Source of the DNA: a virus
Strand: one strand, 5' to 3'
IMG/VR virus record: IMGVR_UViG_3300021519_000068
Span: 1 to 25,172 of that record
DNA: 25,172 bases
Of the stretch, positions 1 through 23,667 are shown piece after piece. Positions within the stretch are counted from its first letter, which is position 1, and every line of letters begins with the position of its first letter. A program made the position numbers and the translations under genes. Under the pieces are notes generated by a model that was not told the origin of the DNA, did no database searches, and saw only the letters and a list, made by a program, of their open reading frames with translations.

Positions 1-1049
1 CCGTAGCCGACAAACACGTCAGAGGTTCCGGCCTTGCCGCCGCCAATATTCACGAGGAAAGAAGACCCGGCCGAGTAAGAATCGGTTGCAGTATCGTTCC
101 CCATAAAAATGGCGTAACTGCCGGTGCCGAACGTGGTGCTGGCCACGGAGGACCCAATCAATATACTGCGAGACGCAGACGTAGCAATGCCGCCGGCATT
201 GGCGCCCAAGGCTGTCATGTTGCTGCCGGCGACGAGTGCGGTTAGCGCGGAATCGCCGATGCCCGTATTGAACGTCCCCGCACACAGAAGTAAAGCCGCA
301 CGCCCGACTCCGGTTGAATTGGAACACGCGCCGGTTCCGTTATGGCCCGCATTTACCCCCAGCATTGTAGTATTGCTGGCAGTCATATTATACCCAGCCC
401 CCTGGCCGACGAAGACCTGGCCCGCCCCCGCTCCTGCGTTTTGGCCGGCAGACGCGCCCAAGTAAGTGTTATACGATCCCGTGGCATTCTTACCAGCCTG
501 AACACCAACGTAGGTAACTTGGGCGCCGGTCAGATTGGCGTAACCAGCCGCCTCGTTCCCTGTCCCACCGGCATAGTAGTTACCCCCGCCAAAACCAAGA
601 AGCGCGGAAGTCGCGGACGGAGTATAAGGCCCCCATTTTAAGGTCAGTGTGGCACCTGTCCCGGCCCCCGAGCTACTTGCTTGCGCCAGCGTGCCGATGG
701 GTGGGATCGAACAAACCCCAGGATTTGACACCCAAAAGTTTGCAACGCCCGTCCCGGCCCCGCCGGTAAGGGCAGTCACCACGGCGATGGGCGCAGTGGT
801 GCAGGTTCCGCCTGCGAGCGTGATCGTATCCCCGACATTGTAGCCTGTGCCGGCCGCGACCGGCGCTCCTGCGGAAATCAGCAGTGCGCCATACGAAGGC
901 GTCCAACCCCCGACCCCAAAGCCGCCGTTGAACGTCCACGCTCCTGACACCGTACAGGAAGCACCGGCAGGGCACGAGCCGTTCTGTGTAATCTGCTGCG
1001 CGTGTGCGGTCCCGGCGAGCAGCAGGAACAAAAGGATCAGAGCGCGCAT
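1..1049 (-). CDS. Secreted fibre/adhesin-like protein, partial (runs off the left edge)
   Basis: The frame is open for 349 codons from the ATG and is cut by the window end. It begins with a clear Sec signal peptide (MRALILLFLLLAGTAHA, AHA/Q cleavage). Residues about 65-140 form a Gly/Thr-rich beta module of the GTGYNVGDTITLAGG type. From about residue 165 come degenerate repeats of the form VGxxAGxNxTGSxNTxLGxxAG, resembling the head repeats of YadA/Hep_Hag adhesins and many phage fibres. Cysteines come in close pairs, which suits an oxidising compartment. The ATG overlaps the upstream stop by one base (TGATG). A receptor-binding or cell-surface role is inferred from repeats and position. A signal peptide is unusual for a virion protein assembled in the cytoplasm. 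Confidence 0.8.
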   Translation of the reverse strand, partial: MRALILLFLLLAGTAHAQQITQNGSCPAGASCTVSGAWTFNGGFGVGGWTPSYGALLISAGAPVAAGTGYNVGDTITLAGGTCTTAPIAVVTALTGGAGTGVANFWVSNPGVCSIPPIGTLAQASSSGAGTGATLTLKWGPYTPSATSALLGFGGGNYYAGGTGNEAAGYANLTGAQVTYVGVQAGKNATGSYNTYLGASAGQNAGAGAGQVFVGQGAGYNMTASNTTMLGVNAGHNGTGACSNSTGVGRAALLLCAGTFNTGIGDSALTALVAGSNMTALGANAGGIATSASRSILIGSSVASTTFGTGSYAIFMGNDTATDSYSAGSSFLVNIGGGKAGTSDVFVGY

Positions 1050-1405
1050 CACTTTGTCCCCACTGTGATGGCTTGCGTGCCAGATGCGACAATGCAGGAG
1101 CCGGTTCCACCGCCCCATGTGATCAGAGACCCTGCCGTGTAGGCTTGGCTGGCGGTCGTTGTCGTTGCCGTGGTTGGCGTTGCCTGGGTGCCACCCCAGC
1201 CGAAGAACACAGGAGCCGCTGCCGTGGTGGGGACTTGGACGGTCAGATATTGGCTGCCAGCGACACCGAACGCGGTGGACGTAGTGCCGCACGTTACGGA
1301 GATGTGCGTCATGCCGCCTGTGTTTGGCGCTGTGGTTTGGCTGGTCGTCTGGGCAAAAACGGGAGCCGACAGGATCAACCCGGCGGCGATGATGATGCGC
1401 TTCAT
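1049..1405 (-). CDS. Small secreted protein of unknown function (signal peptide)
   Basis: The 118-residue product starts with a textbook Sec signal peptide: MKR, a hydrophobic core and SAPVFA/Q as the likely type I cleavage site. The mature part of about 99 residues is Thr/Ala/Gly-rich, probably beta-stranded, and has two cysteines about 65 residues apart that could form a disulphide. I do not recognise a family. The ATG overlaps the cupin gene stop by four bases (ATGA), and the stop overlaps the next start by one base, so it is tightly coupled to the secreted fibre-like gene downstream. The two may act together outside the cytoplasm, but this is inference from order and shared export signals. 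Confidence 0.8.
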   Translation of the reverse strand: MKRIIIAAGLILSAPVFAQTTSQTTAPNTGGMTHISVTCGTTSTAFGVAGSQYLTVQVPTTAAAPVFFGWGGTQATPTTATTTTASQAYTAGSLITWGGGTGSCIVASGTQAITVGTK

Positions 1406-1674
1406 GGGGCCATTCCTGTCAGGATGTTATAGACGCGGGTATGAGGTTGCGTGGCGATGATCTCGTGCGACTGCCCGACACGGAACACGACAGAGCGCCC
1501 GGCGGCATAGCGTTTGCCGTTAATCTCGACTTCGCCAGTTGCCACGATGGTAATGTGAACGCTGGCGGCGTCATGCGAATGGCGTGGCAATCCATCCCCG
1601 ACGTTGGCGAAATCGTAGACGATGCCACGGACAACGCCTTCGGTGAACGAGACAGTGGGGGGCGGCGTGTTCAT
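1402..1674 (-). CDS. Cupin-domain small protein
   Basis: The 90-residue protein has the layout of a minimal single-domain cupin. RHSHD is followed by VHITIVATGEVEINGKRY (cupin motif 1 region: H-x-H, then G-E-V-x-I-N-G), then GQSHEI near the end (motif 2 region with a third His). The three histidines could bind a metal, but the usual motif-1 glutamate cannot be assigned with confidence. Known cupins include isomerases, dioxygenases and pure binding proteins, so substrate and reaction cannot be predicted. It lies between a small protein after the tail fibre and the secreted proteins, with ATGA overlaps on both sides. Small cupins do occur in tail regions of some phages; their role there is not known to me. 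Confidence 0.75.
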   Translation of the reverse strand: MNTPPPTVSFTEGVVRGIVYDFANVGDGLPRHSHDAASVHITIVATGEVEINGKRYAAGRSVVFRVGQSHEIIATQPHTRVYNILTGMAP

Positions 1675-1928
1675 GCCAGTTCTTCGATGTGAGGGGGGAT
1701 CGGCACATCATCCGGCGAAGGTTCCCGATTGACCGCCCCATATGGCGCGACGGTGCCAGACGCGAGCAACTCCGCGTGCATGGTCTTGCCGTATGGTTCC
1801 GTGTCATCCAGCGACGCGGTGAACGGGATTACCTGCCCGGATGCCATAGTCAGGTTGCATGTGATCGTGCGGCCTTGCGGATCGGAGAACACCGCATCCG
1901 AAAAGCCGATGAAGGTCAGTTCCGCCAT
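1671..1928 (-). CDS. Small protein following the tail fibre, function unknown
   Basis: The frame is open further upstream, but the start is placed at the ATG overlapping the fibre stop (TAATG), giving 85 residues beginning MAELTFIGF. The body has a short beta-rich segment (QGRTITCNLTMASG, then IPFTASLDDTEPYG) and an acidic, proline-rich tail ending PPHIEELA. No signal peptide, membrane segment or known catalytic motif is visible. Small proteins directly after a fibre gene are often fibre chaperones or tip proteins; nothing in the sequence proves that here. The stop overlaps the cupin start by four bases. Confidence 0.7.
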   Translation of the reverse strand: MAELTFIGFSDAVFSDPQGRTITCNLTMASGQVIPFTASLDDTEPYGKTMHAELLASGTVAPYGAVNREPSPDDVPIPPHIEELA

Positions 1929-2944
1929 TACACAGTCCTCAAAAAGTGGCCAAAGCCTTCCGTAATCGGGCACCCGTTCACGAATGCAACCACAGGTCCG
2001 CCCATGTTCCGCCAAGTGCCGGATAGCGCGACGCCATCGTCGGTCAAAGTAAGCGCTGCGCCGTTGGACAATATTGCGCCATAGAGGCTTGACCCGGCTA
2101 CAGTCGCACCCTTGGCAATGGTCGAAAGGCTCCGGCTCCCGGCCAAAATCATGGACCCGACCGCACCGACAGCGATCCCAGCCATCGCCGTGCCAACGTC
2201 CGCCGTCGTGAGAGACACCGCGCCCGTGCGGGTATTGAACGTCGTCACACCACTGGCCGGAGCTTGAAATGATGGATCAGCCGACGCACCGTTGTCGGTC
2301 AGCACCCACCCCGCCGTGCTTGGCGCCGCCGCGTTGAACGCCCCCGTTCCCTGCCCAATCAGAACGGCGTGGTTGGTATTCGTCGCCCGTCCAGACCCGC
2401 CAGAGGCCACCCCAAGCGGCGATGCAAGGTTGGTGACGCTGCCCCCGTTGATCGTCCCGCTGTTGGTCGTGGTGCCGGTCAGTGTCGTGCCAGCGATAGA
2501 CCCGAACGTGGCAGCGCCCGATACCCCAAGCGTCCCGGTGACAGTGGCATTTGCCGTGAACGACGCAACGCCAGTCGAGACCGTGAATGTGCCGTTGACC
2601 GATGAATTGCCCGTGATCGCCGCCCCGCCAGCCGTCACCGTCAGGCTAGTAGAAGCCGTCAACGTGGTGGCACTGATAGCGAACGTCCCGCCCGTGAACT
2701 GGCCAAGGGTCATGTAGTCGCCAGAGCCGACAGCTGGAGAAGCCCCCGTGTGCCGAAAGCCCGCCATCGGAAGGTTGGCTGTTGGCTGGCCCTGTCCGTC
2801 CCGCGTGATGCAGTTCCCCAGCCCGTTGGCCACGATATCGTTGGTATCCGCATCCATCCGGGATGCAGTGATATTGATCGAAGCTGCCTTATCCGCAATC
2901 CACGAATACAGGCGGACAAAGGTGCCAGAACCGTTCCAAGACAT
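1928..2944 (-). CDS. Tail fibre protein
   Basis: The 338-residue protein opens with MSWNGSGTFVRLYSWIADKA, an N-terminal attachment module seen in many short-tailed phage fibres, followed by a polar segment (SRMDADTNDIVANGL). Residues about 85-200 are a low-complexity Thr/Ser/Gly/Ala beta region with fibre-type TLTG and SGAATFG repeats. A second common fibre module, GVASGGSGRATNTNHAVLIG, follows near residue 180. The C-terminal 60 residues (TLTDDGVALSGTWRNMG and onward) form a distinct tip. A GGAG Shine-Dalgarno sits about ten bases upstream of the ATG, inside the preceding small ORF. The role is host recognition at the tail; the receptor is unknown. Confidence 0.85.
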   Translation of the reverse strand: MSWNGSGTFVRLYSWIADKAASINITASRMDADTNDIVANGLGNCITRDGQGQPTANLPMAGFRHTGASPAVGSGDYMTLGQFTGGTFAISATTLTASTSLTVTAGGAAITGNSSVNGTFTVSTGVASFTANATVTGTLGVSGAATFGSIAGTTLTGTTTNSGTINGGSVTNLASPLGVASGGSGRATNTNHAVLIGQGTGAFNAAAPSTAGWVLTDNGASADPSFQAPASGVTTFNTRTGAVSLTTADVGTAMAGIAVGAVGSMILAGSRSLSTIAKGATVAGSSLYGAILSNGAALTLTDDGVALSGTWRNMGGPVVAFVNGCPITEGFGHFLRTV

Positions 2945-3090
2945 TACGCTGGCACTCCTTCATCGCGCGGGGTAGAATGGGGTATGGACAAAAAGCCATT
3001 TGAACCGGCATGGCCGGAGAAGCCGTCGCAGTTCTGTTTGCGATTGAACTGTATGCCAATATTTATCCCGATGTTCATCATTCTGTTCAT
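2944..3090 (-). CDS. Small hypothetical protein, 48 aa
   Basis: This short frame exactly fills the gap between the ejection-type gene and the tail fibre. Its ATG overlaps the upstream stop by four bases (ATGA) and its TAA overlaps the fibre ATG by one base (TAATG), the same junction styles used throughout this operon. The product begins MNRMMNIGINIGIQFNRKQN and is polar and glycine-rich, with no signal peptide, membrane helix or known domain. It may exist partly to couple translation of the fibre. The overlaps at both ends are the main evidence. A 43-residue hydrophobic frame lies antisense to it (2984-3115, plus strand), so certainty is moderate. Confidence 0.5.
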   Translation of the reverse strand: MNRMMNIGINIGIQFNRKQNCDGFSGHAGSNGFLSIPHSTPRDEGVPA

Positions 3091-5021
3091 CGCGGCGTCA
3101 CACCCGCCCCGATAAGCATGCGCGCAAGCCGTGATGGCATTTCTGGCGCAATCGACAAATTGCGCCCAAAAATCGACGATACCATGGGGTTGAGTGCGGT
3201 AGCCTGAGCGATACGCCCAGCGACGTTCGGGGCAAAAAAACCAGTCAAGCCGCCCGCGACCATCCCAGGCGTCCCGAGTAAATCATGCCCTTCTTTCGCC
3301 ATTTCTAAAGCCGTTATCAATCGCATCGGACCGCGAGCGGCATGTGTTGCTGTCGGCGAGCTGGCAAGATCACGCTCTACCGGCTGCATGGCCTTCCCGG
3401 TCGCGGCAAGGTCCGCAATCTGGCCGCGGACATTCTGCGGGAACAGAGCATCCTGCGCTTCTTGTGACAATTGAGGCCGTCGTCCGAGCAAAGCATTAGC
3501 AAGCGCCGACGGACTTTCTGTATTGCCGGCGAGATTACGAAGGGAATACGCGCCGAGATCACCGCCAGCGCCGGGGATGGCTTGTATGATGCCACCGATC
3601 CGGCTGCCACCAAGACGCGCCTGTGATAACGCCCATTGCGCTGCGCCTTCAGGATTAGGCGCTTGCAAAATCGGGGATAGAGAATTTTCCAACGTCGCAT
3701 GCATGTCCCTTGTGGCATTATTCGCCACATTGAACGCATTTTCCGCCGCCGGCCCTTGGGGTGCTACGCCGGCTTTGATGTCATCGGTGAGCGCCCCATA
3801 AATCCGTTTCATCGCAGCCTGCGACGTATCAGATACGAGTTGCGGATTGGCCAATCTTTCTCCGATGGCCGTTCGTGCAGAATGGATCGCCCCCGCCGGG
3901 ATCAGACCGCCATTTCCCATCGTCGTAGGATAGAGCGAAGCGTCCCGTTCCAATGCATTCGAAAGAACCTTGAGTGTCCCCGGCTGAAGCGCCGCCGCGA
4001 GATTATCGGCCCCTTGGTATTTCCCGAGAAGTTCCCTTAGAGCATCAGTAGTCGCCGATGTCGGGTAAAGCGTTGAAGGCGGAACGGACGAATGATATTG
4101 GTCCCACAGTTGGGCCGTTGTGGCTTTTTGGTTGTCAAGCCAATCCTTCGCGGCCGTTTGTAGCGTTGTGCCGAGTTCTTGCGGTGTAGATGCCGAGCCC
4201 ATCCCACCAGAGACGCGATTGAGCGCATCTTGCCAGCTTTCGACAAGATTGCCTCGCGCATTGGCCATAGAACTTTCGCTACCGGGCATACGTGATGCAA
4301 GTTTTTCGGCGTAGATCAAACCAGGCGATCCGGTGGATGTGCCGGAAAGATTAGTCGGAAGATCGAGCCTTTTGAACGCGCCATAGGGTTCGCTGATATT
4401 GCTCCCGGTAATCGCACCAGCGAGACGCTGTGGCATACCCGCTACTGCATTCCCGATATACATCCCCGGGACCGACCCAAGAAGTGCCGCGATCAATGGA
4501 CGATCCGGGAACATTTCTGCTGCCGTGCCACCCGTTACGGCGCCTCCGGTTGCAGCTGGGATTGCGCGCCAGTTTCCCGTCGCACCCAACATTGCGCCTG
4601 TTGTGGCATCCATCATCCGACGACCGGCCCACGTTGTCGGTTGGTATTCTGTGCCCCCCGTCGTGTTGAAAGCCATATTTTGGGCTGTCAGAAAATCAGG
4701 GAACGCTGGCTTAGTCGCATCCGTCGGGTCCTTGATGGCCGCTAATGCGGCATCTGCACCCGGATGAAACCCGGCCTTTTCTCCGACCCAATCGACACCT
4801 TGAGCGAGCGCCCGGGGCGTTGACACCAGAGCCGCCATAGCCCGCGCTGCGCCTGTCCCGACCACGCGTCCGGCATCTTTCAGGATATCTCCCGAAGCAG
4901 TCGCGACCGGATGCGGAGGCGGGATGGTATATCCTTCAGGCAAGCCGTCATCCTGCGCCAACAGGATTGACCCCGGAGCGCGCGTTTGAAGCGTGTAACC
5001 TTCGGGTAAACTATCGCTCAT
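3087..5021 (-). CDS. Large ejection-type internal virion protein
   Basis: The 644-residue protein lies directly upstream of the fibre genes and resembles the long Ala/Gly-rich DNA-ejection proteins of P22-like phages. The N-terminus carries two copies of LPEGYT (residues about 5-10 and 27-32), a short repeat common in such proteins. Residues about 125-215 are rich in Gly/Ala with amphipathic or weakly hydrophobic stretches (GAMLGATGNWRAIPAATGGA, LIAALLGSVPGMYIGNAVAG) that could insert in a membrane during DNA delivery. The middle is mainly helical. The C-terminus again has a Gly-rich hydrophobic patch (GTPGMVAGGLTGFFAPNVAG). No enzyme motif was seen. Its start overlaps the preceding ejection gene by four bases. 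The assignment rests on composition and position. Confidence 0.65.
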   Translation of the reverse strand: MSDSLPEGYTLQTRAPGSILLAQDDGLPEGYTIPPPHPVATASGDILKDAGRVVGTGAARAMAALVSTPRALAQGVDWVGEKAGFHPGADAALAAIKDPTDATKPAFPDFLTAQNMAFNTTGGTEYQPTTWAGRRMMDATTGAMLGATGNWRAIPAATGGAVTGGTAAEMFPDRPLIAALLGSVPGMYIGNAVAGMPQRLAGAITGSNISEPYGAFKRLDLPTNLSGTSTGSPGLIYAEKLASRMPGSESSMANARGNLVESWQDALNRVSGGMGSASTPQELGTTLQTAAKDWLDNQKATTAQLWDQYHSSVPPSTLYPTSATTDALRELLGKYQGADNLAAALQPGTLKVLSNALERDASLYPTTMGNGGLIPAGAIHSARTAIGERLANPQLVSDTSQAAMKRIYGALTDDIKAGVAPQGPAAENAFNVANNATRDMHATLENSLSPILQAPNPEGAAQWALSQARLGGSRIGGIIQAIPGAGGDLGAYSLRNLAGNTESPSALANALLGRRPQLSQEAQDALFPQNVRGQIADLAATGKAMQPVERDLASSPTATHAARGPMRLITALEMAKEGHDLLGTPGMVAGGLTGFFAPNVAGRIAQATALNPMVSSIFGRNLSIAPEMPSRLARMLIGAGVTPR

Positions 5022-7051
5022 TTTGGCACCCAGTCACCATTCCGGCGCACAAGCGTAGGTTTATTCGGATGCGTGATAATGAGTCCTTCTGGGAAATTTT
5101 GCGGTTTCGGCTGAGCATTCTCCTTTGGCGTTGCGCTTGGAGAGGGCGCGGAAGGCGCGGGGACACGACCAGCCGGCTGTTCCATTTCGCGGGAAAGGGG
5201 GTCGTAAATCGGGGCGAAGCCGTTCTTCGCGGTATAGGCTGCGCGCCACCCAGGAGAGAGCATGCCGGTGTTCGGATCGGTACTTTTCGCTGCGTCCATC
5301 GCCATGTTGTGGTTATAGAGATACTGCGATCGCGCCCAACCCATAATACGTTCCAATGCTTGCGGGTCCGTTTCAATCCCCGGTTGTGTATGGATGAAAT
5401 GCTCAATTTTCGCATCCGTGATAACGCCAGCTCCAAGCGCGGTTTGCAGGATATTCGCACCTACTACGCCGAGAGTTTTTCGAGCAGATTGCACGTTCCC
5501 GACAGCAGTTGGATCAATGTTAAGCGCTTGTAAATTGATCCCGAGAGACTTTCCAGCGGCAGCGGCGGTGGCGAGCCATGGCGCAAAGAAGCCTGAGTTG
5601 ATGCCGCCTTTCGCGGCTTCATGAAGCTGGTTCAGACCGTAGTCAATGTTGCCAATATTGGTTGCCGCCTCGCGTCCAATATCAAACATCTTGTCGGATG
5701 TGGCTACAGCGGCCTTGCCGGTTGCCGAGCCTTGTTCATTCGCGGCGGCACGATCAGCAACGCCGTTGTTATTAGCCCCCGCTACTGGGAAAATAAAGCC
5801 ACCCGACCCAACCGCCCCCACGTCTCCGGACGGGGTTTGATAAACGCGGGGAGTCGGCTGATAGGTTGGCGGGTGCGTTCCTGTCGTATCAACGGCGCCA
5901 AACGGCGTTTGAACATAATTCGGGTTCGGTGCGGCGGCGCTAACCATTTGGCCAGTCCGGGTATTGACCTGCGTCCCATTCGGGCCGGGCGCGAACGTAT
6001 CCAGCCCCATCAGCATCTGGGCTTCCGCAATCTTCGCGTGCCCCATTTGCTGAATTTGTGGGTCATACGGGTTCGCTATCATCATCTGTTGCGCGCGGTG
6101 GATCATGCCAATGGCATTCTGCACCATCGGGCTGTTAAGGCCGGTCTGCACGGACGCGGGGACATTGGCGGCGGGTTGGCCAGCCGAGGCTACGGCACCC
6201 GGCACCATCGGGCTGTTAAGTCCGGTTGGCGCGGCCCCTTGTCCAGGAGCGGTAGGGGCCGCAACTGACGCAACGCCACCAGCCGCCGGGACCGGAACTG
6301 GTGCCCATTTCGCCGCGATGGTGTTGGGCGTGTTCAAACCTTGCGCACCGTAGTTCTGCAACAGAGCATGAGCCGCTGCTTCCCCGTGTTCCGGGGTTTC
6401 GAACTGCGCAAACCGACCATCGGTTCCAATGTAGCCGGGCTGTTTTTGGGTCCAAGCCGAGGCTTCTAAATTCCCGGGATTGTTGTTGCGCGTGCTGCGA
6501 ACGCCCGGGCCTCTGCCCTCATTATTGCTGATAGCGGAGACAAGCCGAGCACGGACCATCGGGTCCGTCATGTCCAATTTGTCGTCTGGCCCAATCCCGA
6601 GTTGCGCTGCCAGTTTTGGGCCATACCCGGCATTCTCCGCCTCCCCGCCACCGCTACTGGGGACGGAGGGCTGTGCGGTCACGGGGGGCGGCGAAGCGGC
6701 GGGGGGCGGAGATTGCGTACCGCCTTGAATAATACCTCCAGAAGAGGGCGGCATGAACTGCCCGCTCCCGCTCATAAAAGCATTCGCCGCGATGGCGTTT
6801 TGCTGTCTTTGCTTGGCATAGTCAGCAACGTCGTTCTGAGCGCTGTTCATCGCGTAGCTGCCCAGCAACGCCTGAGCGATCTTGCCCAGCCCGCCATACT
6901 TGGAACTGGCAACCGGCGCCATCGACGTGCCTTCTTCAAGCATAGCCTGCGCCAGCTTCATTTTGGGCATAATCCCCAAGAGCGCCGGGTCCTGGTTTTG
7001 CGGCACTCCGCCAGCCATCAAAGCTTGTAACGTCAGGTCAGAACTGGCCAT
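5018..7051 (-). CDS. Ejection-type virion protein with a peptidoglycan-directed NNNPGN domain
   Basis: The 677-residue protein has a helical N-terminus (1-90), a Pro/Gly/Ser-rich linker (95-140) and a compact domain at about 165-250. That domain contains AISNNEGRG (Glu178), then RNNNPGNLEA and FAQFETPEHGEAAAHALL. This RNNNPGN pattern occurs in phage virion proteins thought to act on the cell wall, with the early Glu a candidate catalytic residue by analogy with transglycosylases. A second linker with a duplicated TGLNSPMV motif follows. A long helical C-terminal region (about 440-620) and a basic tail (RRNGDWVPK) finish the protein. A role opening the periplasm during DNA entry is inferred. 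Its ATG overlaps the PP-loop gene stop by one base. Confidence 0.7.
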   Translation of the reverse strand: MASSDLTLQALMAGGVPQNQDPALLGIMPKMKLAQAMLEEGTSMAPVASSKYGGLGKIAQALLGSYAMNSAQNDVADYAKQRQQNAIAANAFMSGSGQFMPPSSGGIIQGGTQSPPPAASPPPVTAQPSVPSSGGGEAENAGYGPKLAAQLGIGPDDKLDMTDPMVRARLVSAISNNEGRGPGVRSTRNNNPGNLEASAWTQKQPGYIGTDGRFAQFETPEHGEAAAHALLQNYGAQGLNTPNTIAAKWAPVPVPAAGGVASVAAPTAPGQGAAPTGLNSPMVPGAVASAGQPAANVPASVQTGLNSPMVQNAIGMIHRAQQMMIANPYDPQIQQMGHAKIAEAQMLMGLDTFAPGPNGTQVNTRTGQMVSAAAPNPNYVQTPFGAVDTTGTHPPTYQPTPRVYQTPSGDVGAVGSGGFIFPVAGANNNGVADRAAANEQGSATGKAAVATSDKMFDIGREAATNIGNIDYGLNQLHEAAKGGINSGFFAPWLATAAAAGKSLGINLQALNIDPTAVGNVQSARKTLGVVGANILQTALGAGVITDAKIEHFIHTQPGIETDPQALERIMGWARSQYLYNHNMAMDAAKSTDPNTGMLSPGWRAAYTAKNGFAPIYDPLSREMEQPAGRVPAPSAPSPSATPKENAQPKPQNFPEGLIITHPNKPTLVRRNGDWVPK
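6121..6226 (-). repeat. Internal 81-base-spaced direct repeat in the ejection gene
   Basis: Two 25-base copies (6121-6145 and 6202-6226) differ at one base and lie 81 bases, or 27 codons, apart. In the protein they encode two TGLNSPMV motifs separated by a Pro/Ala/Val-rich stretch. The in-frame spacing suggests an old tandem duplication in a flexible linker, now diverged between the copies. Confidence 0.75.
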
Positions 7052-7779
7052 CAGACCGCCTCCAATTCATGCCGGAGATTGACCAAAGAGGCAGTCACTT
7101 CCGCCGCGACAACCTGCAATCCGGCCATGTAATCGCGGTGCAATTCAGGATGGTATCGCTTGAGATATGCCCCCCGTTTTTCACCCCACCATGCCGGGCA
7201 ACGGGCGCATTCCGGCGCGCTGGTCATGTGGTCATACAGACGGTTGTGAGGCGCCCCCACGTCGCGCAGATACCCCATGACGCGGGTATGCGCCCAACCC
7301 TGAATGGGGTGCCAGAATTCAATACCGTCCACCACGGCACCCGACTGAACCGGCAGGCGCGGCACGTCCACGGTCTTGCTACCACGGATCACCAAAGTAT
7401 TGCCATCCGCGACAATCCGATCCCAAATCGGCGCCATCAGGTTCGTAAAGCAGCACTCATATCGCTGCACCATGCGCGGGCCTTGCGCGGCTGCCTGCCC
7501 CACGACATGCGCCGAAAACGGGAGAAGGTCCGTCGGCATGCCATTCGCCGCGGTCCACCCCCTCGCATCACCGTGGATATGGACGAAATTCGGCGCCAGC
7601 GTTTTCGCATGCTCCACTTGCTCCATGATCTCGGGGAGAAGGTCGCCTGTGTCGTTGTGATAAACCGTGATGCGGTGCAGATGGTCACGAAGCAAATATA
7701 GGACAGCAACGCTATCCTTCCCGCCGGAAAAGCAAAGCGCGGCTTTGTCATGACGGGCGAGGGGGGCGATGTCGATCAT
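7051..7779 (-). CDS. PP-loop ATP-pyrophosphatase, PAPS/APS-reductase-like, with Fe-S type cysteines
   Basis: The 242-residue protein belongs to the PAPS reductase/adenine-nucleotide alpha-hydrolase superfamily. The PP-loop SGGKDS is at residues 18-23 and an RGSK segment at about 132-135. Cysteines 109-110 form a CC pair and 191/194 a CxxC, about 80 residues apart. That is the pattern that binds a [4Fe-4S] cluster in bacterial APS reductases. The C-terminal ECGxH catalytic motif of true (P)APS reductases is absent; the protein ends HELEAV. It probably activates a nucleotide or substrate by adenylation, as in sulphur-transfer enzymes or the DNA phosphorothioation protein DndC, rather than reducing sulphate. 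It sits, oddly, between ejection-protein genes, joined by one-base overlaps on both sides. Function remains open. Confidence 0.8.
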   Translation of the reverse strand: MIDIAPLARHDKAALCFSGGKDSVAVLYLLRDHLHRITVYHNDTGDLLPEIMEQVEHAKTLAPNFVHIHGDARGWTAANGMPTDLLPFSAHVVGQAAAQGPRMVQRYECCFTNLMAPIWDRIVADGNTLVIRGSKTVDVPRLPVQSGAVVDGIEFWHPIQGWAHTRVMGYLRDVGAPHNRLYDHMTSAPECARCPAWWGEKRGAYLKRYHPELHRDYMAGLQVVAAEVTASLVNLRHELEAV

Positions 7780-8684
7780 CAGAAAAAATACATCCCTGCC
7801 GCGCCAATGCCAGCGCCAGCAATACCGCTGAGGGCGCCAGTATTGGCGTTTTGGGCCGACACTTGCGCCTGATACTGCGCCATGGCTGCGTTGTTCGCGG
7901 CTGCCTGCGCCCCCACGACATCAGTCGGAGCAATCGCCGTCTGGCCGGGCGTCGCAATCGGCTGCGTCGGAGTGGCTGGGGTCGCACCATACAGGGCAGA
8001 CAGCAACGATAGCGGCTGCGTCGCGGCAAGCTGCTGCTGTTGGATATTCTGGTTCTGACCCGCCTGCGCCAGCCCAAACAGATTGGAAGCCGCCGCCGAA
8101 CCCGCGCCGGTCGCGCTGTTCATCGCGGACTGATATGCCTGCGTCCGGGAACTTGCCAATTGCCTTTCAGCATTGTTGTAGGCGTCGCTGCCAACGGCGA
8201 TACCTTGCCGCGAAAGCTGGTCCTGTAGCTTTTGATCCTGATCCTGCCACTGAGGGTCAAGGAAAGACTTCTGCTGCTGATAGAGTGCGTCCGTCGTTTT
8301 TTGGTCTAGTTGCTGCGGTCCCTGGCTCAAATAGGACGAAAATGGGGTATTGAAGTCAAGCGGCTTCGTCGTCGCAGCCGAAGTCTGTTTGGCAAGGTTT
8401 TCAGCCGTCGGGATCAGAGTTGCCGAGACATTTTGCTCGCCACCCAAGATCGCCTGCCCCATCGGGGAGAGTGAAGTCGTCTGCGTGAACGTCGGGACCG
8501 TATCGCCTTGCGGGTTCGTATAGGACCCCGTTTGGTCATACTTCGTCGCACCGTAGGGCGTGTTCTGGTTGACAAAGTTCATCACCGCCTGAGAGGCGGC
8601 GGAACTCGTGTTAGCCTGCCCTTGAGCAGCGGCTGTTTGCGATGCCGACGGGACCGCTGGCTGTGATGGCGCTGATTTACCCAC
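7779..8684 (-). CDS. Ejection-type virion protein, Ala/Gln-rich
   Basis: The start is placed at a GTG that overlaps the GNAT stop by one base (TAGTG), with AGAGGG six bases upstream. This gives 301 residues beginning (V/M)GKSAPSQP. An ATG at 8705 would add seven residues but overlaps the GNAT gene by 22 bases and lacks a good ribosome site. The body is rich in Ala, Gln, Ser and Asn. A central helical segment has the recurring phage pattern LDPQWQDQDQKLQDQLSRQG followed by GSDAYNNAERQLA. The C-terminus is glycine-rich and hydrophobic (GIAGAGIGAAGMYFF), as in proteins that enter the envelope with phage DNA. The role is inferred from family resemblance and position after the tail hub. Confidence 0.7.
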   Translation of the reverse strand: MGKSAPSQPAVPSASQTAAAQGQANTSSAASQAVMNFVNQNTPYGATKYDQTGSYTNPQGDTVPTFTQTTSLSPMGQAILGGEQNVSATLIPTAENLAKQTSAATTKPLDFNTPFSSYLSQGPQQLDQKTTDALYQQQKSFLDPQWQDQDQKLQDQLSRQGIAVGSDAYNNAERQLASSRTQAYQSAMNSATGAGSAAASNLFGLAQAGQNQNIQQQQLAATQPLSLLSALYGATPATPTQPIATPGQTAIAPTDVVGAQAAANNAAMAQYQAQVSAQNANTGALSGIAGAGIGAAGMYFF

Positions 8685-9097
8685 TACGAACCCTCTGCCA
8701 ACCATCGGGCGGCGTCCCTGCGGAGCAACCCAAACGTGATAGCGTCCCCGGTCTCTAGCGCATCCGGGTGGACGCCTTCTTCATGGAAGCCAAGGCGGCA
8801 GAGGAATGCACGGGCGTGCTGGTTCGTAGCCTCGGTAATACAGCTTACCCTCTTACAACCTAACTGCAAGAATGGATACCGCAAAATATCCCGGATGACC
8901 TGTTTCGTTGCCCATTTTGGCGTCGTTGTCGCAAAGCTGATCTCGATATTCGGCGGGCGGAACTGACTGAACACGCACCCCGCCACAATCTCGCCCTTGC
9001 GGAAAACACCTATCGCCTTGCATGGGCCGAAGTCAGAAACCCCAAGCCGCTGCCCTACCCAATGAGCAATTGCCGCATCGTGGTTGTAAATTATCAT
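8684..9097 (-). CDS. GNAT-family N-acetyltransferase-like protein
   Basis: The 137-residue protein matches the compact GNAT fold. It has an N-terminal segment with AIGVFRKGEIVAGCVFSQF (beta strands 2-3), then IEISFATTTPKWATKQVIRD leading into a helix, and a late NQHARAFLCRLGFHEEG stretch typical of GNAT strand 5 to helix 4 (N-x-x-A-x-x-x-x-x-R-L-G-F). The acetyl-CoA pyrophosphate loop (Q/RxxGxG/A) is not well conserved, so activity is uncertain. GNAT-like genes recur in tail clusters of short-tailed phages, sometimes annotated as virion-linked; the acceptor is unknown. Its ATG overlaps the tail hub stop by four bases. Confidence 0.75.
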   Translation of the reverse strand: MIIYNHDAAIAHWVGQRLGVSDFGPCKAIGVFRKGEIVAGCVFSQFRPPNIEISFATTTPKWATKQVIRDILRYPFLQLGCKRVSCITEATNQHARAFLCRLGFHEEGVHPDALETGDAITFGLLRRDAARWLAEGS

Positions 9098-21065: not shown

Positions 21066-21175
21066 CTATTCGGTTGGTGTGAGCGGGGTCATGCCCCACA
21101 TTTCAGCGCGTGCGGCTTCCTCATCAGCGACGGCGGCGGCGTGATTGGCAGGTGCCTCGGAAACCCGCCCATCAT
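21066..21175 (-). pseudogene. Frameshifted small gene downstream of TerL
   Basis: An ATGATG overlaps the TerL stop in the style of the other junctions, but its own frame yields an implausible peptide and stops after 28 codons. The next frame over the same bases reads GRVSEAPANHAAAVADEEAA then RAEMWGMTPLTPTE and ends in TAG. This is a normal-looking acidic small protein, yet it has no ATG, GTG or TTG start. A one-base indel just after the start would explain both facts. It could be a real broken gene, a sequencing error or coincidence in GC-rich DNA. Confidence 0.35.
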
Positions 21176-23667
21176 ATCCGCACCCTTTTTCCGCCGAGCG
21201 TCCTCGGGTTCGTCAGCTTCCACGCCTCAGACATCGTCATCTGCATCGTGCCCCGGATCGGCTCAATAGGCTTCGGCGCCACCGGCTTTTCCATGCGGTC
21301 AAGCAGCTGGCCAACTAGGCCAAGAGCATCGCAATTATGCGTCAACACCCCGTTCGCATAAAAGGCGTGCGCGCGGCTTACGGTGAGATTTAGGACCCTC
21401 GCCTTCTCCGAAAGCGCCCTTTTCTCGATAACGCATACCGCAGGCTTTTGAGCAATAAGCAGCGATCTCAGGCCATTTTGTGGTGAACAAGCGCGCGCAA
21501 CACCGGCAAGGGACCGCTTCACCTTCCGCCACAAATCGCCCGCGCTTGGATGCTCCGCCACCGATGCCCCGCTGCTTGCACCCGCCGCTGCAAAATATGG
21601 CCCGTTCAAAAAAGGCATCGAACCCGACGCCGCAAGAAGCGCAGACCTTGTGGAAAATAGCTGCGCGGTTGTTCCAACTCGCCGCACCATGTTGCTTATG
21701 CCAAGCCAACCCCTCTGGGCTAGAATGCCAAGCCACCGCCATGGGGCGGATTGAAGCGAGATGCTCGCCCATGGCTTCGTCAAAGGGGCGGAGATGAATG
21801 CGTCTGTGATCCCCTTCTTGGACACATTCAAGGTTTGATAGGTCGTTGTTGAGAGTGTTCCCGTCCTTGTGGTGGATATCATGTTTCGGCGGGATAGCGC
21901 CGTTCGCATCTTCCCATATATGCCGATGAAGGAAACCACGCCTTGGTTCCGAACCCGTGTAATACCGGGCATGGTGAACGTGTTTGCTTTCAGGGTATCT
22001 CCGATACCGATGCCCCCGATATTCCACCACATCCGCCTTTGACGTGCCGCGTCGCATTGACCATGATCCGTTGTTATCTGGTCCATTATACCCAACGAAC
22101 CCAACGAAACAAAGCCCCTTCCAACAACATGGACCGGATGATTAGGCGTTCCTGTCAGCACTGAGCCATCCGAGAACGCAACCTGCATTACATCGGCCGC
22201 TTCATCGGTCACGCCGCACGCTTCGACAGCGCACGGGCCTTCATGCGTCGCCACCACGTCACCAATGCGGACATCCTCAATCGGCTTGCGCGACCCATCA
22301 GCCATCGTGATCAGCGTGCCTTCGATCAAACATTGGTCGTCATGCTTTCCGACGGGGAAACTTAATATCTCGCTCTCAAAGGAACCGCGCCATTCCGCAG
22401 TCGCGAGATAGCGTATCCCATCGACGGCCATTCGTCCACGAATAGACTGCGCCCGGATCGCCTTGTCGCCGCGCGTCGGAAAGTCCACCCGATGCACATA
22501 AGCACGGCGTTCCCGCATCGTGCGCGTCAGGAATGGCCCGACAGACGCCTTGATCTGCCCGCCTTCTTCCGCCCATGCCAGCGGCTTCCACCGCCTCACA
22601 AGGGCACAGAACGCCTCCACCCATTCGTCGGCCGTGGTTTGCTCGCGCCATAGGTCCAAAATCCATAGCCTGCCGTCCGCATCCATCCCTACGACCACAT
22701 GCACGGTGTAATCGCCACCGGCTGCCGTCACAGCGTAATCGGAGGCGCCATACACTTTGAGCGCAGAGACCGGCGGCAGGGATGGCACCGGCACCAGCCA
22801 CTGGCGCAGGAAATAGCTCCCTGTGTCGGGCACCGGGTTTTGTTGATAGAGCGCGGACCATGTGCGGCTAGCCCCGGATCGATCAAACTCGCTCTTGATC
22901 GCGCGCGCCTCCGCTGCCCATGGCCATTTGGGATCATCGCCCCAGAGCATTTCCCCGGGTTTGCGTCCGAGCGCGTCGTTATCCTCGGCTATGGCAGGCA
23001 ACCGCACCACGCGCCAGTCATGCGCCTGCGCCTCCAGCAACCGGCCAGCCAAGTCATCCTCGTGCCAGCGGGTCATTATCACGATAACCCGCATACCCGG
23101 CTTGGCTCGCGTCCGCACATCCGCTGTATACCAATTCCAGGCGATGGCTCGGTATGTCTCGCTTTGCGCGTCTTCGTAGGACTTCACGGGGTCATCAATG
23201 ATGATGCAGTCAGCGCGACGGCCAGTAACAGACCCCCCGATTCCGATTGCCTTGTATTCGCCGCCGTTCGATGTGCCCCATGCTTTCATATTCTCAGAGG
23301 CCAGAGTGTATCCGATGGAGCCGCAATGCTCTCGCGCGACGTTCATAACTTTCTTGGAAAACGCCTCGGCAAGATCGCTGGTATGCGATGCCCCGACTAC
23401 GCACTGGCGCGGATGCGTCGCCAGAAACCACGCGGGAAATAACTCTGACCCGTAACTGCTTTTCCCGCTGCCGGGCGGCAGAAACATCATCAGCCGTTTG
23501 GTGTCGCCGCGCGCGACCGCCTCAAGCTCCCGGATAATCAGGCGATGATGCGGCTGTATCGTGAACCCCCGGTCAGCCATAACCCGCTCACAGAACCGGC
23601 CGAAGTCGGCGCGCGTTAGCCCCGCGTCCACGTCGTCCAGGTCCTCCAAGTCTAGCAGGTCACTCAT
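21172..23667 (-). CDS. terL: Terminase large subunit, intein-containing precursor
   Basis: The 831-codon frame encodes the packaging motor, split by an intein. N-extein (1-445): Walker A LPPGSGKS (63-70), Walker B CIIIDDP (154-160) and coupling segment MTRWHEDD (199-205) form the ATPase. The RNase H-like nuclease begins at YGASDY (Asp310) with the AWAEEGG acidic motif near 365-370. The third nuclease motif is interrupted: KHDDQ ends the N-extein and CDALGL starts the C-extein (779-831). After splicing the protein is 498 residues, normal for the family. There is no Shine-Dalgarno before the ATG, but a GC hairpin; a GTG at 23631 with GGAGG upstream is a possible alternative start. Motor and nuclease cut and pump genome DNA through the portal. 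Confidence 0.93.
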   Translation of the reverse strand: MSDLLDLEDLDDVDAGLTRADFGRFCERVMADRGFTIQPHHRLIIRELEAVARGDTKRLMMFLPPGSGKSSYGSELFPAWFLATHPRQCVVGASHTSDLAEAFSKKVMNVAREHCGSIGYTLASENMKAWGTSNGGEYKAIGIGGSVTGRRADCIIIDDPVKSYEDAQSETYRAIAWNWYTADVRTRAKPGMRVIVIMTRWHEDDLAGRLLEAQAHDWRVVRLPAIAEDNDALGRKPGEMLWGDDPKWPWAAEARAIKSEFDRSGASRTWSALYQQNPVPDTGSYFLRQWLVPVPSLPPVSALKVYGASDYAVTAAGGDYTVHVVVGMDADGRLWILDLWREQTTADEWVEAFCALVRRWKPLAWAEEGGQIKASVGPFLTRTMRERRAYVHRVDFPTRGDKAIRAQSIRGRMAVDGIRYLATAEWRGSFESEILSFPVGKHDDQCLIEGTLITMADGSRKPIEDVRIGDVVATHEGPCAVEACGVTDEAADVMQVAFSDGSVLTGTPNHPVHVVGRGFVSLGSLGIMDQITTDHGQCDAARQRRMWWNIGGIGIGDTLKANTFTMPGITRVRNQGVVSFIGIYGKMRTALSRRNMISTTRTGTLSTTTYQTLNVSKKGITDAFISAPLTKPWASISLQSAPWRWLGILAQRGWLGISNMVRRVGTTAQLFSTRSALLAASGSMPFLNGPYFAAAGASSGASVAEHPSAGDLWRKVKRSLAGVARACSPQNGLRSLLIAQKPAVCVIEKRALSEKARVLNLTVSRAHAFYANGVLTHNCDALGLVGQLLDRMEKPVAPKPIEPIRGTMQMTMSEAWKLTNPRTLGGKRVRI
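21335..22057 (-). CDS. HNH homing endonuclease nested out of frame inside the TerL intein
   Basis: The 240-residue protein is read in the -1 frame relative to TerL. It has an N-terminal VEYRGHRYRRYPES segment and LHRHIWEDANGAIPP. A full HNH motif follows (IHHKDGN at 61-67, NNDLSNLEC at 70-78, GDHRRIH at 82-88). IRPMAVAWHSSPEGLAWHKQ comes next. Two zinc-binding modules lie at C139-x2-C142/C156-x3-C160 and C184-x2-C187/C202-x3-C206. This is the usual domain order of HNH enzymes found in phage inteins and introns. The only standard start in this frame is ATG 22057, with a weak GGA nine bases before it. The TAA stop is formed by the CAT-AAT codons for the intein His-Asn. It would cut intein-less terL alleles to spread the element. 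How it is expressed is unknown. Confidence 0.88.
   Translation of the reverse strand: MRRGTSKADVVEYRGHRYRRYPESKHVHHARYYTGSEPRRGFLHRHIWEDANGAIPPKHDIHHKDGNTLNNDLSNLECVQEGDHRRIHLRPFDEAMGEHLASIRPMAVAWHSSPEGLAWHKQHGAASWNNRAAIFHKVCASCGVGFDAFFERAIFCSGGCKQRGIGGGASKRGRFVAEGEAVPCRCCARLFTTKWPEIAAYCSKACGMRYREKGAFGEGEGPKSHRKPRARLLCERGVDA
22091..22108 (-). repeat. 9-bp tandem duplication between intein block B and the HNH start
   Basis: CCCAACGAA occurs twice back to back on the plus strand, giving SLGSLG in the intein frame and FVGFVG in the HNH frame. A nine-base duplication keeps both frames. It lies 34 bases before the HNH ATG, at the point where the intein N-terminal splicing domain ends and endonuclease coding begins. 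Confidence 0.8.

Follow-up and report, generated by a model that had tools for sequence, protein, structure and literature searches.

The window, by which is meant the whole stretch of DNA analysed here, is a complete IMG/VR virus record of 25,172 bases that represents a contig fragment. It carries the structural genes of a tailed phage as a minus-strand operon, which encodes terminase, a portal-size protein, tail proteins, an injection/lytic protein and a fibre of 338 residues, in addition to a major head protein that matches PHROG 9953. The fibre gene is followed by genes for a small tail-fibre-type protein, a cupin-like protein of 90 residues and two further proteins, P0002 and P0001, which are translationally coupled and lie at the end of the tail module, where P0001 runs into the contig end (Table 1). 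Stop and start codons overlap at the cupin/P0002 junction (ATGA) and at the P0002/P0001 junction (TGATG), so that the start codons of both proteins are credible, and both reading frames occupy the positions and the strand given in a preliminary description of this DNA. Sister podoviruses do not have this cassette, the fibre gene in these phages directly adjoining the lysis genes, and since the window phage also has a separate cytoplasmic fibre, the cassette is regarded as accessory in this lineage.

Elsewhere in the operon, the large terminase subunit (21172-23667, minus strand) is interrupted from about residue 446 by an intein-like Hint segment, and the region encoding it is overlaid, in another frame of the same strand, by an HNH_3 ORF (PF13392, 1.9e-14; 21338-22057, minus strand), giving a nested homing-endonuclease arrangement. 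The operon also includes a PAPS-reductase-like gene (PF01507, 6.8e-10; 7051-7779, minus strand) and, between tail genes, a gene with a weak match to GNAT acetyltransferases (8684-9097, minus strand).

Table 1. Features at the end of the tail module of the window.
Feature	Positions	Strand	Basis
338-aa fibre, cytoplasmic, no signal peptide	1928..2944	-	PHROG 13989 virion structural protein, 2.4e-23
Small tail-fibre-type protein	1671..1928	-	PHROG 1141 tail fiber, 3.9e-5
90-aa cupin-like protein, no signal peptide, translationally coupled, upstream of P0002	1402..1674	-	Cupin_2 match weak, below cut-off
P0002, small exported protein, 118 aa (mature about 100 aa), predicted all-beta	1049..1405	-	ORF/translation; signal rule
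Predicted Sec signal peptide of P0002, residues 1-18, MKRIIIAAGLILSAPVFA	1352..1405	-	Rule and sequence
P0001, large exported fibre-like protein, first 349 residues, 3' part past contig end	3..1049	-	ORF; complete homologue P0003
Predicted Sec signal peptide of P0001, residues 1-17, MRALILLFLLLAGTAHA	999..1049	-	Rule; identical in L003
P0001 N-terminal GTGYxxGD-type domain, residues about 50-140, cysteines 83 and 113	630..902	-	Sequence comparison
P0001 YadA-head-like beta-roll repeats, residues about 150-349	3..602	-	L003 comparison; model of P0003

Signal peptides and the small protein

Signal peptides were called with a fixed, home-made rule (not SignalP) that looks for a positive n-region, a hydrophobic core and a small-x-small cleavage site. 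Only two of the 28 window genes have a signal peptide by this rule, and these are the adjacent genes for P0002 and P0001, each of which shows the n-region, core, cleavage site and supported start of a Sec type I signal. Cleavage is predicted between MKRIIIAAGLILSAPVFA and QTT in P0002 and between MRALILLFLLLAGTAHA and QQI in P0001, and a lipobox was not found on inspection of either sequence. The preliminary description had assigned Sec signals to both proteins, in agreement with the rule, and A-x-A sites to both, which is correct for P0001 (A-H-A) but not for P0002 (V-F-A). It had also set the pair apart from the fibre upstream, and the 338-aa fibre is indeed without a signal.

P0002 has two cysteines, at positions 39 and 104, and a single-sequence model of low confidence (pLDDT 61) predicts an all-beta jelly-roll, the cupin/jelly-roll structure matches of which (Z up to 9) are weak because of that pLDDT. 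Its counterpart in the relative L003 is 100% identical in amino acid sequence, with one synonymous change and no others, a divergence too small for any test of selection. No homologue of P0002 was found beyond L003. One P0002-like match, in L178/L179, was rejected, as it was to a similar signal peptide on a different protein of 70 residues. L178 encodes an exported protein of 1,685 residues followed by the exported 70-aa protein (L178:228-5504), in line with apparent virion genes.

Layout and divergence of the large protein

The complete large protein is available from L003 (IMGVR 3300004774_000028), which has the same genes and is 94% identical in DNA to the window. Here P0003 (L003:6357-7688; 443 aa) consists of a signal peptide, an N-terminal domain, beta-roll repeats of 16 residues and a C-terminal beta-sandwich, and as P0001 is cut by the contig end, the C-terminal domain of P0001 itself is inferred from L003. 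The signal of P0003 is identical to that of P0001. Six cysteines are found in the part of P0001 that is present and ten in the complete P0003. Further along L003 are ORFs of 65 and 110 residues and, downstream of the pair, a third exported protein (L003:8589-9017; 142 aa) with a lipobox-like AMAGC signal. Past the common stretch there is a mosaic exchange in this otherwise 94% identical relative (L003:1-4181 versus window 3087-7051), in which both injection/ejection-type genes have been exchanged for different ones (581 and 812 residues versus 677 and 644 residues).

The first 50 residues of P0001 and P0003 are nearly identical; from residue 150, nonsynonymous changes exceed synonymous changes and one 16-residue repeat has been gained or lost. 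Divergence of this kind is what would be seen in a protein whose variable binding part sits on a conserved base. A more distant relative, L007, has the same N-terminal domain as P0001 and more repeats, and the GTGYxxGD-type domain recurs only in L003 and L007. A relationship of this domain to a 282-aa protein near the capsid gene of the window was considered and dropped, the comparison being not significant.

P0003 was modelled as a monomer with AlphaFold2 using 74 sequences. Residues 1-165 gave no confident model, while residues 178-300 are predicted to form a strand every 16 residues (pLDDT about 70-91) and residues 340-443 the C-terminal beta-sandwich (pLDDT 87-97). The fibre-like repeats noted in the preliminary description are thus NTxxGxxAG-type units modelled as a beta-roll with a 16-residue period, and residues 178-443 as a whole are predicted to have a beta-roll body and a beta-rich tip, as in receptor-binding proteins. 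The best matches among solved structures are tailspikes, namely those of Sf6 (VIA Z 12.8, rmsd 8.7), Dettilon, Klebsiella depolymerases and P22, and tail spikes and fibres are also among the matches in a viral structure library. Because the rmsd is large and the Foldseek E-values against the PDB are only 0.004-0.005 at best, the modelled fold is taken as a tailspike-like arrangement and not as homology. Pfam, NCBIfam and PHROGs assigned no family to P0001 or P0002, a sequence search of the PDB with P0003 assigned none either, and a tail spike family, phrog_4636, was matched weakly (E 0.0099 for P0001 and 0.13 for P0003). A tblastn search of cultured phages and plasmids for P0001-, P0002- or P0003-type proteins found nothing, to which low-complexity masking may contribute.

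Signal peptides and cysteines in the C-terminal domain family

Searches for the C-terminal domain of P0003, with one query that included the cysteines and one that did not, and with the signal peptide in neither, recovered 108 distinct ORFs. Nearly all of them lie on IMG/VR contigs of uncultured tailed phages, which are metagenomic and in many cases incomplete. The domain was not detected by tblastn in 50,697 cultured-phage records or in plasmids, a search that is limited by masking, and a species-genome collection contained only two ORFs with the domain, both in Acidobacteria MAGs. By eye, one of these belongs to a phage, with terminase on one side of the gene and portal on the other (L057), and the second is a bacterial chromosome (L058), where an exported domain protein (L058:3183-5282) lies beside folD- and coaE-like genes in an Acidobacteriaceae MAG; the domain therefore also occurs on a bacterial secreted protein.

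Associations were tabulated for the 100 ORFs with a readable N-terminus, the eight with an unreadable one being left out. A signal was called by the rule in 77 of them, and a cross-strand cysteine pair, which joins the strand after a conserved Trp to the last strand, is present in 73 of these 77 and in 1 of the 23 without a signal (Fisher 4e-17). After dereplication at 80%, the pair is present in 71 and missing from 4 carriers with a signal versus 1 and 11, respectively, of the 12 signal-less carriers, and at 60% the corresponding numbers are 30 and 1 versus 0 and 6 (p=3e-6). On inspection by eye, the only signal-less ORF with the pair (L134) has an evident signal peptide that the rule missed, and three carriers with a signal and no standard pair (L057, L058 and L122) have alternative cysteine partners; the signal call in L172 is probably false. 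A cysteine as such is tolerated in signal-less carriers, since single cysteines do occur at either position, but the pair is missing.

The two cysteines also shift together. When the first lies at W+2, the last is at its usual place in 55 of 55 cases (one cysteine per strand), and when the first lies at W+4, the last is two residues earlier in 9 of 9 (55/0 versus 0/9, p=4e-11). These opposite two-residue shifts are what the pairing of antiparallel strands requires. In the AlphaFold2 model of P0003 the cysteines are C392, in strand 390-396, and C440, in strand 435-442, which could pair antiparallel (392+440 = 394+438). Two further cysteine pairs co-occur (C84-C100 and C11-C51, in alignment columns), and the cysteine count is even in 67 of 75 exported carriers (p=1e-12). 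Among close relatives, L093 has no signal and Ala at both positions while L027 and L035 have a signal and Cys at both, and L012/L137 versus L136/L167 is a second sister example. In a tree of the short domain the signal label needs seven changes, and the two well-supported independent contrasts are both concordant and too few for significance, so shared ancestry may contribute in part to the association of signal and pair. Better evidence than the association test comes from the register covariation and from the sister examples.

Taken together, the signal/pair association, the register covariation and the even cysteine counts provide strong evidence, drawn from sequence comparison, for export and disulfide folding of the family, without pointing to a particular function, and they bear out the export and oxidative folding proposed in the preliminary description. 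P0001 and P0002 are very probably exported, disulfide-bonded proteins of the fibre type. That the signals are real but incidental or recently acquired, on what are ordinary fibres assembled in the cytoplasm, would account for the signal-less carriers of the domain, but it is contradicted by the way in which cysteine pairs and signals change together and runs against the even cysteine counts. In addition, the L007 homologue of P0001 has diverged in its signal sequence, to VRFLAILAALAWLSVSNAWA, and this is still a signal peptide. We regard incidental signals as very improbable.

The genes that adjoin exported carriers match PHROGs for terminase, portal, major head, baseplate, tail and endolysin proteins, and a single Pfam family alone detects terminase on 18 of 47 carrier contigs. 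Such neighbours speak against the carriers being secreted proteins of bacteria on misassigned or mis-binned contigs, an idea to which the chromosomal position of L058, one of only two matches among genome contigs, lends some support, and for the window, a tailed-phage structural operon, it is contradicted. A bacterial origin is therefore given hardly any weight. The +1 neighbour is itself exported in 18 of 60 cases for exported carriers, whereas none of 97 genes that neighbour carriers without a signal is exported; the background rate of the signal rule in carrier loci is 93 of 737. One exported neighbour (L013:4814-6037) is a Pfam-positive S74-chaperone tail fibre with tail fibre PHROG matches, and another (L061:5333-7873) is a fibre with a GDSL esterase domain whose N-terminal domain is common to the adjacent exported fibre. 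The carrier L033 has a pectate-lyase-like tailspike domain, and the contig of L029 has a second S74 ORF that passes the signal rule (L186), which five other S74 ORFs examined fail. Four of the phages (L013, L061, L009 and L122) each encode two different exported proteins with the same domain directly after the signal.

A possible route from the periplasm to the virion

The fibres of tailed phages are generally taken to be cytoplasmic proteins. Known tail fibres and tailspikes, such as those of Sf6 and P22 and the S74-chaperone fibres, resemble the proteins described here in their place in the virion operon, their repetitive beta structure, their rapidly diverging distal part and the fold matches, and they differ in that the window family has a Sec signal and covarying disulfides. 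The resemblance to S74-chaperone fibres extends to the Pfam-positive S74 fibre among the exported relatives, but P0003 itself ends in a predicted disulfide beta-sandwich and has no S74 match. Trimeric autotransporter adhesins (YadA) have similar NTxxGxxAG-type head repeats and an export signal, whereas P0003 ends in the beta-sandwich and lacks the YadA anchor barrel (no Pfam match).

The explanation that we favour, as a complete chain and with a probability of roughly 0.45, is that these proteins are secreted receptor-binding fibres of a tailed phage that fold in the periplasm and dock on virions at lysis. P0001 and P0002 would be made late, together with the virion proteins, and exported with cleavage of the signal. 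As disulfide-stapled, probably trimeric fibres they would fold in the periplasm and be stored there until lysis, when the mature N-terminal domain would most likely dock onto virions released through the periplasm and the docked fibre would serve the progeny as an extra adhesin. The smaller of the two, P0002, which does not vary, may be an adaptor or base and P0001 the variable fibre. Docking is favoured because of the shared N-terminal domains, the position in the virion operon and the fibre families involved, the common domains after the signal suggesting, by analogy, multiple receptor-binding proteins with one virion anchor. A further point in favour is that the post-signal domain of L013 is similar to the N-terminal end of a tailspike-like ORF without a signal in MT835568, a faecal phage, but this match is weak (41% over 63 aa, E=0.02) and concerns L013 and not P0001. 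Late docking is feasible, given that completed particles can take up P22 tailspikes and T4 fibres in vitro; to our knowledge, docking after the dilution that accompanies lysis has no precedent. Other observations argue against docking. The N-terminal domain of P0001 has relatives only in L003 and L007, and a cytoplasmic fibre is already present in the window phage, which makes the exported cassette an accessory.

Alternatively, the proteins may never join the virion and may instead bind host glycans or receptors from the periplasm or the lysate, sparing the progeny adsorption to debris or to cells that are already infected, or act as soluble depolymerases. Export is clear and the signals are of type I, some exported members have esterase or pectate-lyase-like domains, and the cassette is an accessory beside a separate cytoplasmic fibre. 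There is also a precedent in T5 Llp, a periplasmic phage protein with one disulfide that causes superinfection exclusion by blocking FhuA (PMC9586334). Llp and Cor thus resemble the window proteins as disulfide-containing phage proteins in the periplasm, but they are small lipoproteins, whereas the window proteins are fibre-like and have no lipobox with which to be anchored. Even a loose lipobox pattern is found in only 2 of 75 exported carriers, so superinfection exclusion of the lipoprotein type, one of the roles listed in the preliminary description, finds no support. The paired proteins with common post-signal domains suggest a docking partner, and sizes up to about 1,466 residues together with virion-operon positions fit structural roles; we consider free blockers less probable than docking, but a serious alternative. 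Of the other roles proposed at the outset, both receptor masks and fibres added after lysis are possible.

It has also to be considered that the proteins decorate the living host as surface adhesins or factors of lysogenic conversion. In lambda, lom lies between the genes for the tail spike and the tail fibre, and its product is exported to the outer membrane and expressed in lysogens (PMC12309495). A pneumococcal PblB, a tail-type protein of phage origin for which a signal peptide is predicted, mediates adhesion; in the same paper, S. mitis PblB is drawn without a signal peptide (PMC4508584). The presence of the domain in an Acidobacteriaceae chromosome (L058, by eye) would also fit. Lom is, like P0001 and P0002, an exported protein coded among tail genes, but it is an outer-membrane beta-barrel, whereas P0003 is modelled as a soluble fibre with beta-roll repeats and a beta-sandwich and no barrel. 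PblB shows that a phage tail-type protein can act as an adhesin, with a signal predicted in one pneumococcal version, but its host is Gram-positive and PMC4508584 reports no disulfide domain family. An integrase was found on only 7 of 47 carrier contigs, although many of these may be fragments, no outer-membrane anchor or barrel was found, and the carriers sit in structural operons. A biofilm-type adhesin, as listed in the preliminary description, has little general support if it were to act by lysogenic conversion, and decoration of the host surface seems improbable. None of Lom, Llp and PblB represents a family of exported fibres whose disulfides covary, and no description of signal-bearing tail fibres in uncultured phages was found in the open-licence papers searched.

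At the level of the sequences, these data indicate that fibres fold outside the cytoplasm in some uncultured tailed phages, which is not predicted by textbook assembly. The export signals and disulfides that come and go together are sequence-level evidence for fibre-type proteins made outside the cytoplasm, and since masked tblastn, within its limits, did not turn up the domain in cultured-phage records, it is only with metagenomes that the question can be raised. This evidence bears on virion maturation and on how progeny avoid re-adsorption to debris, as well as on how receptor-binding proteins are to be recognised and expressed, that is, under oxidising conditions and with the signal removed. 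We put forward more tentatively still that widespread uncultured tailed phages may split their assembly, with particles built in the cytoplasm and receptor-binding fibres that are secreted, undergo oxidation and folding in the periplasm, and are mounted only when the particles cross it at lysis. If docking were shown, this would be a new assembly route.
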